DNA of 64,000 bases from Candidatus Pullichristensenella stercorigallinarum (GTDB taxonomy: Bacteria > Bacillota > Clostridia > Christensenellales > Aristaeellaceae). The stretch covers positions 25,322 through 89,321 of the forward strand of contig DVFZ01000122.1 of NCBI GenBank assembly GCA_018712945.1, in the 5' to 3' direction. Shown here in pieces: positions 64 to 57,377 of this stretch (position 1 is the stretch's first letter; each line of letters starts with the position of its first letter). The translations under genes and the position numbers were made by a program. The notes under the pieces were generated by a model. The model saw only the letters and a list, made by a program, of their open reading frames with translations. It searched no databases and was not told the origin of the DNA.

Positions 64-330
64 GCCTGCCCCGGACGCGAAAGTCCGGGGCAGGCCCAGA
101 ACGCTGCCAAAGCCTGCAAACGCAAAAATTGCCCTGATAAAATAAAAATCAGAGGCAATTTTTGCTTCCTGCGTCAGCTGCGCATGCCCTCTTCGGTCGC
201 TCACGTCCATGTAAGCTCCCCTGTCCGCAAGTTTGCTCCTTTATCTTGCGGGCTTTTGAATCCCTCTGGCAGCCTGTCGGTTTTGCCAATATCCTGGGTC
301 TGCCCCGGACCTTCGCGTCCGGGGCAGACC
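64..330 (+). repeat. Family A repeat, copy A1
   Basis: This is a dispersed element with a core of about 200 bp (96-296). The core carries an internal hairpin, CAAAAATTGCC with GGCAATTTTTG, and a block shared with copies A2-A4 that includes CTTACGTCCATGTAAGCTCC or close variants. It is bounded by two hairpins. The left one (64-95) and the right one (297-330) share the stem CTGCCCCGGAC/GTCCGGGGCAG, and their loops are near reverse complements. The right hairpin lies about 22 bp past the stop of the minus-strand DUF4432 gene, so it may be that gene's terminator hairpin. Short ORFs inside are not supported as genes. Bases 1-63 hold nothing I can identify. Confidence 0.8.
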
Positions 331-352: not shown

Positions 353-1396
353 TCAGTTCGCCAGCTTCTTGTATTCCTCGATAAGGGCCGCGTCGTCCGT
401 CAGCTCCATTTCAAAGCCGGATTCGTACACCTGGCCGGGTTCGAGGGTGATGAGCGTGCCGTTTTCGCGCGCTTCCACGCGGGAAAGCACGCCCGAGGTG
501 GTCGGCTCCAGGCCCAGGGCGTAGTCGCCGGCGCGCATGCACTTCCACTCGCACAGAAGCGGCAGCACCTTGGCGTCGAAGCGCAGGGCGGCGGCCAGGC
601 CGAGCTTTTCATTGTGCAGCATGGCAAAGCCCTGGCCCGGGAAGCCGGTGTGGAAGTAGCACTGTTCCTCGCGGCCGATTTCCGGGGCCTCCATGCGGTC
701 GTGGATGGGCAGGCCCTGGCGGGCGAAATCGTCGCGCGGCTCCACATGGCCGGAATTTACGTAAATGCGCGCGCCATCATCCAGCATCGGGTAGCCGAAG
801 TTGATGTGGTAAATCAGCATCATCGGCGAGGGGGCGAAGCCCTGGTTTTCCACGCGGTCGATGACCTTAAAAGCGCTCTTTTCCGTATGGATGCGCACCT
901 CGCGGGTGAGCACCATGTTTTCCTCGAATACGCAAGCCTCGCGCACTTCACCGCGCAGGCGGATGACCGCCTCGTCGCCTTCGAACACGGTTTCGCAGGC
1001 CACGTTCGCGGCGGGGGTGTTGCTGTACGGCCCATGCAGGCCCAGCTCGCGGCCATTGTCCGTGCAGGCCGCGCCCGCATACGTCAGCCCACAGGTGGTG
1101 AGCATGCCGGCGTCAAACTGCTTGAGGAAGCCGCGGCCGCCGTTTTCCGTGTAGAACTGCGGGGCGCGCACGCCCACCTTGGCGCCGAAGCCCATGTTCG
1201 CGCCCTTGTAGCGCAAAAAGGGGATGTCCAGCCCGCGGTCGGCCAGCAGGGTCATTTCCAGCCCCCGGCCGTTGTTTACGTCGAAAGCGCGCATGCCCCT
1301 GGCCGGGCCGTCGTTGTAGGTATAATCCTTTACGCCAAAGAGGGTTTCCAGATTGCCCGCGTATTTGCGCAGGTTTGCCATTTCGCTTTTTTTCAT
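353..1396 (-). CDS. DUF4432 / aldose-1-epimerase-like protein
   Basis: The protein has 347 residues and resembles the DUF4432 group of galactose-mutarotase-like beta-sandwich proteins. Family-like stretches are GMRAFDVNNGRGLEMTLLADRGLDI near the N-terminus and ELGLHGPYSNTPAANV in the middle. Such proteins are thought to bind or epimerise sugars or uronates in the cytoplasm; no substrate can be read from sequence. I place the start at ATG 1396 (MKKSEMANL) rather than the track's upstream Met, because AAGGAAGG lies about 10 nt before it and the promoter lies just upstream. The gene is transcribed alone, divergently from the kdpD-like gene. Its 3' end abuts family A copy A1. Confidence 0.85.
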   Translation of the reverse strand: MKKSEMANLRKYAGNLETLFGVKDYTYNDGPARGMRAFDVNNGRGLEMTLLADRGLDIPFLRYKGANMGFGAKVGVRAPQFYTENGGRGFLKQFDAGMLTTCGLTYAGAACTDNGRELGLHGPYSNTPAANVACETVFEGDEAVIRLRGEVREACVFEENMVLTREVRIHTEKSAFKVIDRVENQGFAPSPMMLIYHINFGYPMLDDGARIYVNSGHVEPRDDFARQGLPIHDRMEAPEIGREEQCYFHTGFPGQGFAMLHNEKLGLAAALRFDAKVLPLLCEWKCMRAGDYALGLEPTTSGVLSRVEARENGTLITLEPGQVYESGFEMELTDDAALIEEYKKLAN

Positions 1397-1435
1397 GGGA
1401 AAAAGACCTTCCTTTCGGATATGTTTTCCACATAT

Positions 1436-1464
1436 AGTATACCGCTTTTTACTGCCGCGCACAA
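1436..1464 (-). promoter_or_regulatory. Sigma-70-type promoter of the DUF4432 gene
   Basis: On the minus strand TTGTGC and TATACT are separated by 17 bp, about 40 nt upstream of the chosen ATG. Confidence 0.6.
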
Positions 1465-3364: not shown

Positions 3365-3789
3365 GCGGCGCGCGCCCGCCCCACGAGCAGGGGGACGGGC
3401 GCGCTTTGTTGCGTTTCGATTGATGCGGGAGTACGAATACGCGCCGGGCGGCTCACGCGCAGGAGCCGCCCGGCTTGCGTTGCAGGGTTGCGATTCTTGC
3501 GCGGCAGCCAATGGGATTCTTAAGGGATAAATCCCTTAAGCGGGTGCGGGCAGGGCCCGCCGTAGCCCCGCCGGAACCATGGCCCTGCGCGTGTGGCCAA
3601 GCGGCAAAACGCCCCGCCCGCCGTTCCCCGCGCGCCCGGCAACAGCCAGCTTGCACGAGGAAGAATTTTGCCCGCCGCCATCCCAAAACCGGGCGCGCGC
3701 CTTCCCGAAGCGCCCTTGCCGCAGGCAAGCAGCGTCGCCCCGCACCCACGCAGCGCCCCTTGCCCCAGCGGGGCAAGGCAGCGCCAACC
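3329..3789 (+). repeat. Family B repeat, full-length copy B1
   Basis: The element starts inside the last codons of kdpE with GTCGGCAGTGCCGAC, a hairpin with an AGT triloop. A terminator-like hairpin follows (about 3381-3412; GCGCGCCCG arm, then TTTGTTGCG). Next come GCCGGGCGGCTC/GAGCCGCCCGGC (3447-3474), CTTAAGGGATAAATCCCTTAAG (3519-3540) and a GC-rich tail with CTTGCCCCAGCGGGGCAAG. It is nearly identical over its whole length to the inverted copy B2 downstream of carB. ORFs in this stretch on both strands have no family resemblance and are treated as spurious. Confidence 0.8.
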
Positions 3790-3852: not shown

Positions 3853-4110
3853 GCCCCTGCCCTATCAAGAATGGAGCAGAGCGTTGACAAAGCCCGCAAA
3901 CGCGAAGATTACCCAGATCAATTCAATATAGATTCAAAGGCAATTTTCGCCTCTTGCGTCAGCTGTACTTACAGGCTGCGGTCACTTACGTCCATGTAAG
4001 CTCCCCTGCCTGCAAGTTTGCAGCCTTGTCTTGCAGGCTTTCCTGCCGCTCATGGGATGTAGACTTTGCCAATGTCCCGGCGTCCCTGCTCCATCAAGAA
4101 TGAAACAGGC
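3853..4110 (+). repeat. Family A repeat, degenerate copy A2
   Basis: The core aligns by eye with A1 and A4: AAAGCCCGCAAACGCGAAGATTACCC, CTTGCGTCAGCTG, CACTTACGTCCATGTAAGCTCCCC and CTGCAAGTTTGC. Its flanking hairpins are decayed but still related to each other: CCTGCCCTATCAAGAATGGAGCAG on the left and CCTGCTCCATCAAGAATGAAACAGG on the right. The rest of the gap up to 4424 contains only GC-rich sequence in which I recognise no gene. Confidence 0.65.
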
Positions 4111-4424
4111 CCCCCTTGAGCGCATTCCGATTGGGGCAAAAGGGCAGACCGCCGCCGGAACCATTCGCGCGCGGAAGCGCCCGGCTTGCGCTGCAGAGAA
4201 ACAGAATTTACGCAGCGGACAGGGGAGGCCCCAATGGACAAACCCTCTGAGCGGCGGCCGTAAATTTATGCAGATGAGCAAGCGGCATGGTGCTTAGGCC
4301 GTCCACCGGGCTTGCATGCTTTCGCCAGAAAGCGGCCGGGGTGCGTCCATCTCCCGAAACCACCAGACGCGTCCCAACGCTTGCGCCACGGGCTTTTCCA
4401 GCCCCGCCCGCACTTTCCGGCAAT

Positions 4425-4452
4425 CAAAAAGCCCGCCGCATAACGGCAGGCT
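4425..4452 (-). terminator. Intrinsic terminator of the Cys/His membrane protein gene
   Basis: On the minus strand AGCCTGCCG and CGGCGGGCT form a stem with a 5-nt loop, followed by a T run, just past the stop codon. Confidence 0.7.
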
Positions 4453-4465
4453 CTACAGATCGTTT

Positions 4466-4978
4466 TTACTGCGCGCTTCCCGGCGTATAGACGGGGGCTC
4501 CGCACTCCGCGCAAGGCTGGTAACCCTTGTAATAGGCCACCGCCAGCTCGTATTTGCGGCTGTAACTGGCCACGTATTTGCAATCGGAGGTGTGGTAATA
4601 CTGGCCGCTGTCGTTGGCGTAGACATAGGTTTTTGCTATTTCCTCAACGTCGGCCAGTACCGGGGCGCTGGCGCCGGAAACCACGCCGTAGTTGGCAGAC
4701 CCCGTGTCCAGCGAAGCGGGAAGCTCCGGCCCATAGACCGTTACGTCCTTTTCCACGCCAACCATGCGCACGCCGCTATTGCCACGGCCGGGCGGCGAAG
4801 TCAGCGGCGAAAGAACCACCACCGTCAAAAACACAAAACAGGCGGTCACCAGCCCCTTTACGGCCGGATGCCACCGCTGCGTCCGCCACATCAAAAAAAG
4901 GCCGTAGGGATAGCATACCACCAGGAAGAAAATGGTCTTCCAAATGGAACGCTTCCGCCGCCGGGGCGTATTTCGCAT
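4466..4978 (-). CDS. Membrane protein with Cys/His-rich C-terminal domain
   Basis: The protein has 170 residues and no family I can name with confidence. The N-terminus is strongly basic (RRRKR), followed by two hydrophobic segments at about residues 12-31 and 40-57. The C-terminal half looks extracytoplasmic. It ends with YYHTSDCKY and, 25 residues later, PCAECGAP, an HxxxC...CxxC arrangement that could bind a metal or be disulfide-linked. Similar endings occur on some secreted nucleases and surface proteins of Firmicutes. The gene is monocistronic, diverges from the J-domain gene, and has its own terminator. Confidence 0.7.
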   Translation of the reverse strand: MRNTPRRRKRSIWKTIFFLVVCYPYGLFLMWRTQRWHPAVKGLVTACFVFLTVVVLSPLTSPPGRGNSGVRMVGVEKDVTVYGPELPASLDTGSANYGVVSGASAPVLADVEEIAKTYVYANDSGQYYHTSDCKYVASYSRKYELAVAYYKGYQPCAECGAPVYTPGSAQ

Positions 4979-5283
4979 GATTCAGATCCTCGTTTTCCCC
5001 AAAATTCGACAATTTCCTGATTTCTATTGTAAGCTCCATGGCGCAAACAGTAAAGGAAATGCCGCCGGAGTTCAAAAAATTGTACCATTGCGATAATATC
5101 TGCAATAGTTTCGTAATATACTAGGGGTAGCGGAGGCGAAATGTGCAGTCCACAACATATGGGCGTCATATTTGCCTTGGCATTCGCACGCACGCTGCTT
5201 GACAGGAAACGGCAAACGGTGTTATACTCAAAAATGGGGGTTTGGCGGGGGTAATTCTTCCTCTTGGAAGGGAGGCGCGCGCC
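4979..5283. other. Divergent intergenic region
   Basis: This 305-bp AT-richer spacer separates the divergent membrane-protein and J-domain genes. It contains the J-domain promoter. I see no further gene or repeat in it. Confidence 0.6.
5199..5228 (+). promoter_or_regulatory. Sigma-70-type promoter of the J-domain gene
   Basis: TTGACA and TATACT are separated by 18 bp, about 55 nt before the ATG. Confidence 0.75.
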
Positions 5284-5781
5284 ATGGCGAGCGATTATGA
5301 AATTCTTGGCGTTTCGCCCTGCGCCAGCAGGGAGGAGGTGCGCGCGGCGTATCGGGCCTTGGCCCGGCGCTGGCATCCCGACCGTTTTATGGAAGGCCCG
5401 GAGCGCGAATGGGCAGGTGCGCGCATGGCGGAGATCACCCGCGCTTATCGCGCCTGTATTAAGGGGTGCCGCGCGGCGCGTGCCACGCGCACTACGCGCG
5501 CGGAGGATGACGAGCGTCTGGAGCAGGCGCGCCGTTTGATCGACGATGGCCAGTTCAGCAATGCCCGCGCAGTGTTGATGGAGGTATCCACCCGGCGGGC
5601 GGAGTGGAACTATCTGTTTGGATTGATGCTTTTGCACCGGCAGGAATATGAAAAGGCGCTGGTGTACCTTTCCGTAGCCGCGCATCAGCAGCCGGAAAAC
5701 GAGAAATACACGCGCATGGAAAATGTGGCGCGGGGAATACAGGAAAGCAGACGGCCGCGCTTTGGCCGGTTTTCCTGGTAG
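5284..5781 (+). CDS. J-domain (DnaJ-like) protein with TPR-like tail
   Basis: The protein has 165 residues. Residues 4-60 form a J domain (DYEILGVSP, YRALARRWHPDRF) with the HPD tripeptide needed to stimulate a DnaK-type ATPase. The Gly/Phe and zinc-finger regions of true DnaJ are absent. The C-terminal half (FSNARAVLMEV, WNYLFGLMLLHRQEYEKALVYLSVA) reads like one or two TPR-type helical repeats, a common layout in clostridial J-proteins of unknown client. The start is ATG 5284 because GGGAGGCG lies just before it; the track's upstream Met has no site. No dnaK is adjacent. Confidence 0.85.
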   Translation: MASDYEILGVSPCASREEVRAAYRALARRWHPDRFMEGPEREWAGARMAEITRAYRACIKGCRAARATRTTRAEDDERLEQARRLIDDGQFSNARAVLMEVSTRRAEWNYLFGLMLLHRQEYEKALVYLSVAAHQQPENEKYTRMENVARGIQESRRPRFGRFSW

Positions 5782-6331: not shown

Positions 6332-6797
6332 TTGGCGCTGCCTTGCCCTGGTGGGGCAAGGGACGCTGCGTGGGTGCGGGGCGACGCTGCTTGCCTGCGG
6401 CAAGGGCGCTTCGGGAAGGCGCGCGCCCGATTTTGGGATGGCGGCGGTGGGCGAAATTTTCTCACGTGCAAGCTGGCTGTTGCCGGGCGCGCGGGGAACG
6501 GCGGGCGGAGTGTTTTGCCGCTTAGCCACACGCGCAGGGTCATGGTTCCGGCGGGGCTACGGCGGGCCCTGCCCGCACCCGCTTAAGGGACTTGTCCCTT
6601 AAGAATCCCATTGGCTGCCGCGCAAGAATCGCAACCCTGCAACGCAAGCCGGGCGGCTCCTGCTCCTGAGCCGCCCGGCGGTTGTACGTACTCCCGCATC
6701 AATCGAAACGCAACAAAGCGCGCCCGCCCCCTACTCGTGGGGCGGGCGCGCGTCGCTCCAACGCGGCAGCGCTGGCAGCCGGCACCGCCGGCCGGCC
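6332..6797 (-). repeat. Family B repeat, full-length copy B2
   Basis: This inverted full-length copy begins directly after the TAG stop of carB-dapF-like with GCCGGCGGTGCCGGC. It carries the terminator hairpin GCGCGCCCGCCCC/GGGGCGGGCGCGC followed by TTTGTTGCG, then the GCCGGGCGGCTC stem, then the CTTAAGGGAC...GTCCCTTAAG hairpin and the GC-rich tail. It is nearly identical to B1 apart from compensating or loop changes. It is the likely terminator of the arginine operon. Confidence 0.8.
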
Positions 6798-33858: not shown

Positions 33859-34883
33859 CCACACAGGCGCACAAGGGCAAGCGATCCCTGACAAAGACGC
33901 TGGGCAATTACAGCTTTATCCTCATCTTTGCCTTTATCCTCATTGCCTACCTCATCATCAACGCCGGCGCAACTACGCTCAACGGCGTGATGAACATCCT
34001 CCGCCACTCGGCCGTAGTGGGCATCATGGCCTTTGGCATGGGCCTTGTTATCATCACCGGCGGCATCGACCTGTCCGTGGGTTCAATGCTTTCGCTGATT
34101 GGCGGATTGGGCGTGGTGGCGTTCAACGCCTCCAACTCCGTGATACTTACGTTTTTGACGGTCGTGCTGGTCGGCTGTGTGCTGGGCTTTTTCAACGGCA
34201 TACTCATCGGCAAGGTGAAAATGCCGCCGTTCATCGTCACGCTGGCCACCATGCTGATTTACCGCTCCGTGGCGCAGTATTACCTGCGCACGCTGCGCCT
34301 GTCCATCTACAACATGGATGCCACGCTTTCGGCCTTTGATTCGTTCTACGACTTCGGCCAGTACAAAGTATTCGGCGTGATCCCGATGGCGGGCGTAATC
34401 ATGATCCTTGTCACGGTCATCATGGTGTTTGTCTCCACCTGCACAAAGTACGGCAAGAGCGTATACGCCGTGGGCAGCAACGAAAAGGCGGCGCGGCTGG
34501 CCGGTATCAACGTGGAATGGACGCATGTTTCCGTTTATACCATTACTGGCGCGCTGTGCGGCATCAGCGGCTTTATGTGGTTGGCCATGAACGGCTCGGT
34601 AGACCCGGCCACCATCGGCCAGAGCAACGAAATGTATGCCATTGCCGCGGTGGTTATCGGCGGCATCAGCATGAGCGGCGGCAAGGGCAAGCTGCTGGGC
34701 GTGCTGTTCGGCGCCATGAGCTACACCATCATTGATAAGATCATTTCCTCTCTGGGACTGGACGCTCTCATCAATGATACCATCAAGGGTTCCATTCTGC
34801 TGTTGGCGGTATTTGTGCAAATCGCCATTCCCGCCATTCGCAGCAAGTTCCAGCGCGTAAAGCCGGCCGGCAGTGCCGGCTGA
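33855..34883 (+). CDS. Sugar ABC transporter permease (RbsC type)
   Basis: The protein has 342 residues and about 8-10 hydrophobic segments. Family marks are GMGLVIITGGIDLSVGSML, VKMPPFIVTLATMLIYR, and GSNEKAARLAGINVEW, the cytoplasmic ATPase-contact loop. It forms the membrane channel of the CUT2 importer. The ATG overlaps the ATPase stop in an ATGA. The last codons (PAGSAG) and TGA are contributed by family B repeat B3a, so the C-terminus has been altered by the repeat. Confidence 0.93.
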   Translation: MTTQAHKGKRSLTKTLGNYSFILIFAFILIAYLIINAGATTLNGVMNILRHSAVVGIMAFGMGLVIITGGIDLSVGSMLSLIGGLGVVAFNASNSVILTFLTVVLVGCVLGFFNGILIGKVKMPPFIVTLATMLIYRSVAQYYLRTLRLSIYNMDATLSAFDSFYDFGQYKVFGVIPMAGVIMILVTVIMVFVSTCTKYGKSVYAVGSNEKAARLAGINVEWTHVSVYTITGALCGISGFMWLAMNGSVDPATIGQSNEMYAIAAVVIGGISMSGGKGKLLGVLFGAMSYTIIDKIISSLGLDALINDTIKGSILLLAVFVQIAIPAIRSKFQRVKPAGSAG

Positions 34884-35058
34884 CAGAGCTGCCGCTCGTG
34901 AGTGTCGAACCCCTGCCCCACGAGTAGAGGGCAGGGGTTCTTTGTTGCGTTTTGGATTGGGAGAGAGTGCGAAGCGCGCCGGACGGCCCATGAGCAGGGG
35001 CCATCCGGCTGTCGTTGTAACATCGGTGTGCCTTGCGGCAGCAAATGGGATTCTCAAG
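34866..35058 (+). repeat. Family B repeat, short copy B3a
   Basis: The element begins in the permease's last codons with GCCGGCAGTGCCGGC. It holds terminator stem ACCCCTGCCC/GGGCAGGGGT followed by TCTTTGTTGCG, stem GCCGGACGGCCC/GGGCCATCCGGC, and the GCGGCAGCAAATGGGATTCTCAAGG motif, after which copy B3b begins directly. Confidence 0.82.
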
Positions 35059-35528
35059 GAGGCCGGCAGTGCCGGCTGACAGAGCTGCCGCTCGTGAGCG
35101 GCGAACCCCTGCCCCACGAGTAGAGGGCAGGGGTTCTTTGTTGCGTTTTGGGTTGGGAGAGAGTGCGAAGCGCGCCGGACGGCCCACGAGCAGGGGCCGC
35201 CCGGCTGTCGTTGTAACATCAGTGTGCCTCGCGGCAGCAAATGGGATTCTCAAGGGACTTGTCCCTTGAGCGGGTGCGGGCAGAGTCCGCCGTAGCCCCG
35301 CCGGAGGCATGGCCTTGCTCGGATGGAAAGTAGAGTTCTACGCCCGCCGTTCTCTGGCGCGTCTGACAACAGGCTGGCCTGAGCGCACAAGTATTTCGCC
35401 CACTACCAACATACCGATCAAAATCCGACGCGCCATTTCCCACAGCGCCCTTGCCCCGATGGGGCAAGCAGCGCCACTCCGCACCTCCACAGCGTCCCTT
35501 GCCCCATCGGGGCAAGGCAGCGTCATCC
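35059..35528 (+). repeat. Family B repeat, full-length copy B3b in tandem
   Basis: This is a second, nearly identical unit in direct tandem with B3a, extending through CAAGGGACTTGTCCCTTG and the long tail with CTTGCCCCATCGGGGCAAG. The tail aligns with B1 and B2 but is more diverged. The region from 35529 to 35751 is AT-richer. It holds a minus-strand stretch (YLSERPIVSSVSYRHKEFKAVVWDGKG) that may be a gene remnant, but I cannot assign it. Confidence 0.8.
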
Positions 35529-36653: not shown

Positions 36654-36912
36654 CGGCAGTGCCGCCAGCCAGAGCTGCCGCGTTTGTGTGATCGCCCCTC
36701 TGCCCCGTGGATTATGGGGCAGGGGGGCTTTGTTGCGTTTCTGGTTGGGGAAGAGTGCGAAGCGCACTGGGCGGCTCAGGAGCAGGAGCCGTCCGGCGTG
36801 TGTTCGTACTCTCATATCAATCGGAACGCAACAAAACACGCCTGCCCCCTACTCGTGGGGCAGGCGTGTGTCGCTCCAACGCAGCAGCGCTGTCAGCCGG
36901 CACTGCCGGCCG
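36654..36912. repeat. Head-to-head family B repeats (B4f and B4r) between convergent genes
   Basis: Two half-elements face each other and share the central stem GGGCGGCTC/GAGCCGTCC. The forward one (from 36654) has GGCGGCAGTGCCGCC and stem GCCCCTCTGCCCC/GGGGCAGGGGGGC followed by TTTGTTGCG. The reverse one, read from 36912, has GCCGGCAGTGCCGGC and stem ACACGCCTGCCCC/GGGGCAGGCGTGT followed by TTTGTTGCG. Each half terminates one of the convergent genes; the reverse half also encodes the last residues and stop of the carboxypeptidase. Confidence 0.8.
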
Positions 36913-44875: not shown

Positions 44876-45093
44876 GCGCTGCCCAACCCGAGCAAGGGCA
44901 ACGCCCTTGCGAATCCCATTTTCCGCCGCGCAACCTTGCAACGAAAGCCGGGCGGCCCCTGCTCGTGGGCCGCCCGGCGGGCTTCGCACTTTCCCGCAGT
45001 CCAAAACGCAACAAAGAACCCCTGCCCCATTCCTGTCGGGGCAGGGGTTCGGCCGCCCAGTTCGCGGCAGCGCTGGCCGCCGGCATTGCCGGC
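44876..45093 (-). repeat. Family B repeat, copy B5
   Basis: Read on the minus strand it begins right after the permease TAG with GCCGGCAATGCCGGC, then stem AACCCCTGCCCC/GGGGCAGGGGTT with CTTTGTTGCG, stem GCCGGGCGGCCC/GGGCCGCCCGGC, GCGGCGGAAAATGGGATTCGC and CAAGGGCGTTGCCCTTG. The tail is shorter than in B1 and B2. Confidence 0.8.
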
Positions 45094-49187: not shown

Positions 49188-49446
49188 GTCCCCGCGCGCA
49201 TAAGGCACGCGGGGACGCAGGATGTTGACAAAGTCAACAGACTGCCAGAGGGATGAGAAAGCCTGCAAGGCAAGGAAGCAAACTTGCAGGCAAGGGAGCT
49301 TACATGGACGTAAGTGACCGCGGGCTGCATGTGCAGCTGACGCAGGAAACAAAAATTGCCTCTGATTCTCTTTGTTCAGGGCAATTTTTGCGTTTGCAGG
49401 TTTTGTCAGCGCTCTGTGTCCCCGCGCGCATAAAGCACGCGGGGAC
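49188..49446 (-). repeat. Family A repeat, inverted copy A3
   Basis: The core is the reverse complement of A1, A2 and A4: GTTGACAAAGTCAACAGACTGCCAGAGGGATGAGAAAGCCTGCAAG at one end, GGGAGCTTACATGGACGTAAGTGACCG in the middle, and the hairpin CAAAAATTGCC/GGCAATTTTTG. The flanks are GTCCCCGCG-CGCATAAGGCA-CGCGGGGAC (49188-49216) and the same with AAAGCA in the loop (49418-49446), in direct orientation. It lies 22 bp past the lacI-type stop. The ORF at 49253 (MRKPARQGSKLAGKG) is an artefact of the repeat. Confidence 0.85.
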
Positions 49447-49468
49447 GCGCAATGGTCCAAAGGCCCGC

Positions 49469-56855: not shown

Positions 56856-57098
56856 CCCGACTGAATGTTGGGCCGCCGAACCGCTCGCGCGGGTGGCGGC
56901 CTGGTTTTGGATCGCCCCTGGATAGCGGCGGCGGGGAATGCCACCGGTCTATGCTGCGCGCCCGCCATGGGGACAGGAGGCGCAACCGGACGCGGGACGG
57001 ACATCTTCCTGCTTGATGGGCGCGGCATTTGTATTGGCAGCGCCGGACTGATTCCCATTGCTGAATTGGCCGGGAAGACCCGCCCGGCGCGCAAAGAG

Positions 57099-57350
57099 CG
57101 GCGGACGCATATACGTCCGCCGCCCAAAGCGCTGATAAACCCCGCAAACGCAAAAATTGCCCTGATCAAAGAGAAATCAGAGGCAATTTTTGCTTCCTGC
57201 GTCAGCTGCACATGCAGCCTGCGGTCACTTACGTCCATGTAAGCTCCCTTGTCTGCAAGTTTGCTTCCTTGTCTTGTAGGCTTTCTCATCCCTCTGGCAG
57301 TCTGTTGACTTTGTCAACATCCTGAACGGCGGACGCATATGCGTCCGCCG
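57099..57350 (+). repeat. Family A repeat, copy A4
   Basis: The core follows A1 closely: CCGCAAACGCAAAAATTGCCCTGATCA, GGCAATTTTTGCTTCCTGCGTCAGCTG, CACTTACGTCCATGTAAGCTCCC and GTTGACTTTGTCAAC. It is flanked by CGGCGGACG-CATATA-CGTCCGCCG (57099-57122) and CGGCGGACGC-ATAT-GCGTCCGCCG (57327-57350), which differ at one base. The right hairpin lies 28 bp past the groEL stop. The ORF at 56162-57289 on the minus strand is spurious. Confidence 0.85.
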
Positions 57351-57377
57351 CCATTTTTATGGGGTATGGGGTTTTGC

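Follow-up and report, generated by a model that had tools for sequence, protein, structure and literature searches.

A 200-bp repeat of Candidatus Pullichristensenella stercorigallinarum is very probably a MITE that is moved by IS1182-family transposases and duplicates whole terminator hairpins

The repeat family found at positions 64-330 of the analysed DNA (family A) is, with a probability of about 0.9 as judged from sequence, a MITE, i.e. a non-autonomous DNA transposon of 200 bp that DDE transposases of the IS1182 family mobilise in trans. The analysed DNA, called the window here, is a 64-kb stretch of the 2.96-Mb draft genome of the uncultured gut bacterium Candidatus Pullichristensenella stercorigallinarum (own genome). 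The interval 64-330 proved to be composite: its core is a 200-bp element (97-296), which is bordered by two hairpins (64-95 and 298-329) of near-identical sequence. The copies in the window and their surroundings are as follows (strand given for the copies).

64-95, left target hairpin of A1, GCCTGCCCCGGAC-loop-GTCCGGGGCAGGC; duplicated target DNA, MFE -28 kcal/mol
97-296 (+), MITE copy A1, 200 bp, ends CAGAACGCTGCCAAA...TTTGCCAATATCCTG
121-167, internal hairpin P2, CGCAAAAATTGCCCTGAT...ATCAGAGGCAATTTTTGC, with an A-tract/T-tract stem
274-296, right-end hairpin, GTTGAC-TTT-GTCAAC in the consensus; belongs to the right end
298-329, right target hairpin of A1, at the 3' end of the convergent ORF 353-1462 (-)
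3857-3876, left target duplication of A2, CTGCCCTATCAAGAATGGAG; decayed hairpin
3877-4079 (+), MITE copy A2, diverged, internal hairpin partly broken
4086-4105, right target duplication of A2, CTGCTCCATCAAGAATGAAA
49187-49217, target hairpin of A3, first flank
49218-49416 (-), MITE copy A3, 97% to the consensus
49417-49448, target hairpin of A3, second flank; 32-bp duplication, 31/32 identical
57096-57124, left target hairpin of A4, GAGCGGCGGACGCATATACGTCCGCCGCC
57125-57324 (+), MITE copy A4, 97% to the consensus
57325-57351, right target hairpin of A4, followed by a T run (terminator)

A1 is an old, diverged copy, showing at most 87% identity to other copies of its genome. The ORF next to its right hairpin is presumably mutarotase-like, judged from general likeness. 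An earlier note based on four copies had described a repeat with a long internal hairpin at this place. The repeat is real, and the internal hairpin (CAAAAATTGCC...GGCAATTTTTG), the block CTTAC-GTCCAT-GTAAG and the alteration of one hairpin arm in A2, where it is partly broken, were all recovered. The note had missed that the own genome has about 55 loci in place of four, that the flanking hairpins are duplicated target DNA differing from locus to locus, and that the ends are transposon ends.

The search of the own genome delivered 81 candidates, 40 of which scored as matches to the element; the 55 loci were collected with a strong match, 36 of them being full length. Such a high copy number is typical of MITEs. 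The contigs C72, C90, C113, C123, C57, C19, C60 and C35 of G000 terminate within MITE or IS1182 sequence. Many contigs ending inside a copy are expected of a repeat that breaks assemblies, and because of these breaks the copy number is a lower bound. The element was found in five of the seven genomes of the genus, and exact matches to a conserved 20-mer occur in Candidatus Pullichristensenella, Candidatus Faecivicinus and unnamed MAGs of the Clostridia/Clostridiales.

The consensus of the element runs from CAGAGCGCTGACAAA to TTTGTCAACATCCTG (200 bp). Its ends are fixed (CAGAGCGCTGACAAA / reverse complement of CAGGATGTTGACAAA) and form, as in other MITEs, a terminal inverted repeat, which is imperfect and 15 bp long (CAGAGCGCTGACAAA / CAGGATGTTGACAAA, 11/15 identical). 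Frame +1 was open in 40 of 60 copies. Third positions were the least variable ones (0.063 vs 0.087 and 0.080) and 1-base indels were frequent among the copies. The missing third-position excess and the indels speak against a protein-coding element, in agreement with the earlier statement that no reading frame is conserved. Family A is thus a short non-coding element without a transposase of its own, as expected of a MITE.

A second dispersed repeat family is present in the window at 3391-3787, 6332-6731, 34860-35326, 36710-36912 and 44936-45040. Its members at 3391-3787 and 6332-6731 form an inverted pair (93-97% complementary) around a 2.5-kb stretch that contains the ORFs 4316-5020 and 4891-5685. 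G005 (L152) has similar repeats.

The hairpins flanking family A typically have a terminator-like GC stem, a sequence specific to the locus and the same orientation on both sides. Among the 108 flanks, 101 folded below -10 kcal/mol within 36 nt, compared to 32% of random 36-mers of the window. A run of T following the right hairpin, or a run of A preceding the left hairpin, was present at 34 of the 54 copies; both orientations were represented. A direct hairpin duplication (score of at least 10) was detected in 40 of the 54 copies with enough flank, while mispaired flanks, taken left and right from different copies, reached this score in 5 of 2000 trials. A clear direct duplication was absent in 14 of the 54 testable copies. 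The duplicated target comprises the whole hairpin, about 20-41 bp, indicating that joining of the element's ends takes place at the feet of the hairpin.

Homologous sites without the element show the state before insertion. At G006:C136 the sequences on either side of the insertion L011 can be aligned right through the insertion point, with one hairpin and no element. A single hairpin is also present at the matching place of G004:C246 (insertion L018, homology on the right flank only) and of G006:C261 (insertion L021). Since these three element-free sites of relatives carry one hairpin each, the hairpin is target DNA that was doubled by the insertion. Target-site duplication and element-free sites in relatives are thus both on record for family A, as is expected of a MITE. 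Three further candidates for element-free sites (L159, L181, L154) were dropped, as these loci are too rearranged. That almost every copy has a hairpin at each end could also be explained if the hairpins were a part of the element and carried along in pairs, the target not being duplicated. We give this practically no chance, because the hairpin sequence differs at each locus and the three element-free sites already refute it.

In some copies the loop is inverted in one of the two hairpins, namely at L009 (A1: 64-95 vs 298-329), L032 and L041. The insertion L010 is common to another species (G006:C89, 95% identical) and is therefore older than that split. Its hairpins are direct in the own genome and have an inverted loop in the orthologue at G006:C89 (L157), which means that the flipping happens after insertion. 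Palindromes evidently flip in these genomes, and the inverted loops imply no RNA function. At two loci (L016, G000:C32:50873; L023, G000:C12:15800) the right hairpin of one copy is the left hairpin of the other, which speaks for recombination between copies or for chimeric assembly at this repeat. At L098 and L014 we observed hairpin-MITE-hairpin arrays in which the same hairpin flanks MITEs in different genomes and is adjoined by one more MITE-like end. These arrays suggest repeated insertion at one terminator.

The ends of family A, its target and the kind of duplication are shared with IS1182 and tie the MITE to this family. The own genome contains at C32 an IS of 1541 bp, whose transposase reaches 443 bits on the NCBIfam model IS1182 (NF033551; cut-off 270) and carries DUF772 and DDE_Tnp_1_6; the hairpins at the two ends of this IS differ from each other. 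About 20 further IS1182 fragments were present in the own genome, mostly at contig ends. Their right ends (TTTGTCAATGGTCTG) adjoin hairpins, and at C90, C72 and C3 the hairpin next to the IS1182 right end is one that flanks a MITE copy. Draft assemblies hide most IS flanks. Among 150 genomes sampled from the bacterial family, two full-length relatives display a perfect duplication of a terminator hairpin, 31 bp in L249 (CGTCCCCGCATTCTTTGCGAATGCGGGGGCT) and 22 bp in L252 (AGCCTTGCATTTTTGCAAGGCT). Together with the right ends of the own-genome IS, they show the same choice and duplication of the target as the MITE. The left ends of the MITE (CAGAGCGCTGACAAAGCC) and of the IS L250 (CAGACCGCTGACAAAGCC) agree at 17 of 18 positions, and the MITE copy L134 has the IS-type end CAGACCGTTGACAAA exactly, so that family A shares its ends with an autonomous IS1182 element. 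The right end is less alike, differing from that of the own-genome IS at 4 of 15 positions.

An IS1182 transposase was not detected in three genomes rich in MITEs, G001 (100% complete), G004 and G005. The MITEs in these genomes may be relics, or they may be served by another transposase, or the IS1182 gene was lost or not assembled. Both these genomes and the differing right end would be in line with an unnamed transposase of another kind, or a retroelement, moving family A, the likeness to IS1182 ends being convergent. We regard this as unlikely in view of the match of the left ends and of the identical target choice and hairpin duplication by full-length IS1182 elements. The matching ends and the similar hairpin duplication within the same bacterial family make a trans action of an IS1182-family transposase the best explanation. 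An IS1182-like fragment at G006:C36 (33% identity) was rejected as a partner of the MITE; its right flank adjoins a hairpin and its end matches the MITE no better. At L059 (588-645, G000:C67:30388-30445) two IS1182 right ends lie head to head in a near-perfect palindrome of 58 bp (CAGAGCATTGACAAACCCCTGCATTT...AAATGCAGGGGTTTGTCAATGCTCTG) with an adjoining hairpin. This palindrome is possibly a minimal mobile unit.

The insertion of family A may be pictured as follows. An IS1182 transposase would act in trans on the MITE and would recognise the target as a cruciform, and repair synthesis would then double the hairpin. With an intact hairpin left on each side, the terminators of the neighbouring genes should persist, and a gene next to an insertion probably retains its stop signal. 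Retained terminators would render insertions nearly harmless, which could account for the high copy number. The usual position of the element itself is immediately behind a duplicated terminator, so that it should see little transcription.

The earlier note had considered family A a conserved structured RNA or, alternatively, a non-autonomous transposon, and had proposed a covariation analysis. The transposon is borne out by the defined ends, the copy-specific target duplications, the element-free sites and the IS1182 relatives inserting alike. The covariation analysis, performed on 60 copies, was positive for structure. The consensus folds far better than shuffled sequences on both strands (z of -6.8 for the + strand and of -8.3 for the - strand), and none of 200 shuffles was as good. 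RNAalifold found only a weak consensus structure in the 60-copy alignment (covariation term -0.41), and each pair of the MFE structure was therefore tested individually. In the MFE structure of the - strand 91% of the cells were paired over the 60 copies. Changes on both sides affected 25 of the 69 pairs (9 in shuffles) and 64 cells (20 in shuffles). Sliding by -1 as a control still gave 57 double-changed cells, but just 37% paired cells. Covariation was seen in the helices 2, 4 and 6, with the best support for P2 (10/17 pairs) and helix 4 (6/9 pairs), so that covarying helices, a mark of structured RNA, are present. Several changes in P2 look independent by eye, with no tree behind this judgement, e.g. 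TTGC/GCAA to TCGC/GCGA in one subfamily, AAGAAT/ATTCTT in L145 and ATACCAATC/GGTTGGTAT in L132.

A conserved structured non-coding RNA, or a small RNA or riboregulator, that is dispersed by chance would match the very stable fold and the covariation in these three helices. An RNA made in one sense should, however, favour the G-U pairs of its own strand, and the mismatches were about symmetric: 39 distinct G-U mismatches (tolerated on the + strand) vs 46 distinct A-C mismatches (tolerated on the - strand only), or 78 vs 118 cells, in a comparison whose tRNA positive control had too few sequences. The strand preference expected of a structured RNA (G-U kept, A-C not) was hence not found, which disfavours an RNA gene. 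In addition, no Rfam family matched in a search of the window, the copies sit past a duplicated terminator, and their dispersal is explained by fixed transposon ends and target duplications. We therefore consider the RNA very improbable; of the former claim, "structured" is supported and "RNA" is not. A strong fold with covariation in a repeat is by itself no evidence of an RNA.

Symmetric mismatches are what DNA-level constraint or palindrome correction gives, and not a one-strand RNA. The best explanation for the multibranched fold kept by covariation is accordingly one at DNA level, i.e. the inverted-repeat structure of active lineages and/or palindrome correction in replication rather than an RNA product. 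It is conceivable, though we hold it to be rather doubtful, that the strand-symmetric fold works as folded DNA (cruciform or single strand) in a structure-guided transposition in which the transposase reads donor and target by shape. If this applied, the transposase that reads the target hairpins would also require the element in its folded form.

Few transposons choose their targets by DNA shape. Group IIC introns also insert next to intrinsic terminators; these are self-splicing retroelements without target duplication, whereas family A is a DNA element with inverted-repeat ends. The prokaryotic MITEs treated in a review, such as QMITE2 of Coxiella and BOX, RUP and SPRITE of pneumococcus (PMC10969869), resemble family A in being short, non-coding, strongly folding, intergenic, present in high copy number and mobilised in trans by IS. 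The target duplication of QMITE2 is given as 7-9 bp, compared to the complete hairpin of 20-41 bp in family A, and terminator targeting does not belong to the account of those elements in the parts of the review considered here. In the open-licence literature we found no description of an IS1182-derived MITE or of whole-terminator duplication by a MITE.

The closest known system is the IS1182 family (NF033551) itself, especially IS1272/TnSha1 of staphylococci, which has in common with family A the transposase family, terminal inverted repeats of about 15-16 bp and a choice of stem-loops and terminators as targets that is independent of their sequence. Unlike IS1272, family A encodes nothing. 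IS1272 is reported to enter stem-loops and confirmed terminators, which it partly deletes or replaces without duplicating the target (PMC4923244, PMC5678879). Duplication of the hairpin is one possible outcome of the IS1272 model (PMC5678879, Fig. 13 legend), and our data for family A fit this branch. The whole-hairpin duplication suggests why such elements are tolerated at high copy number, and it provides a substrate for tests of shape-directed insertion. In the literature considered here, hairpin targeting by the IS1182 family is known mainly from the staphylococcal cases, in which the target stem-loop is removed or replaced (PMC4923244, PMC5678879). Family A, which doubles the whole hairpin, offers with its element-free sites and full-length IS kin a large natural set displaying the complementary outcome, the duplication of an entire terminator.
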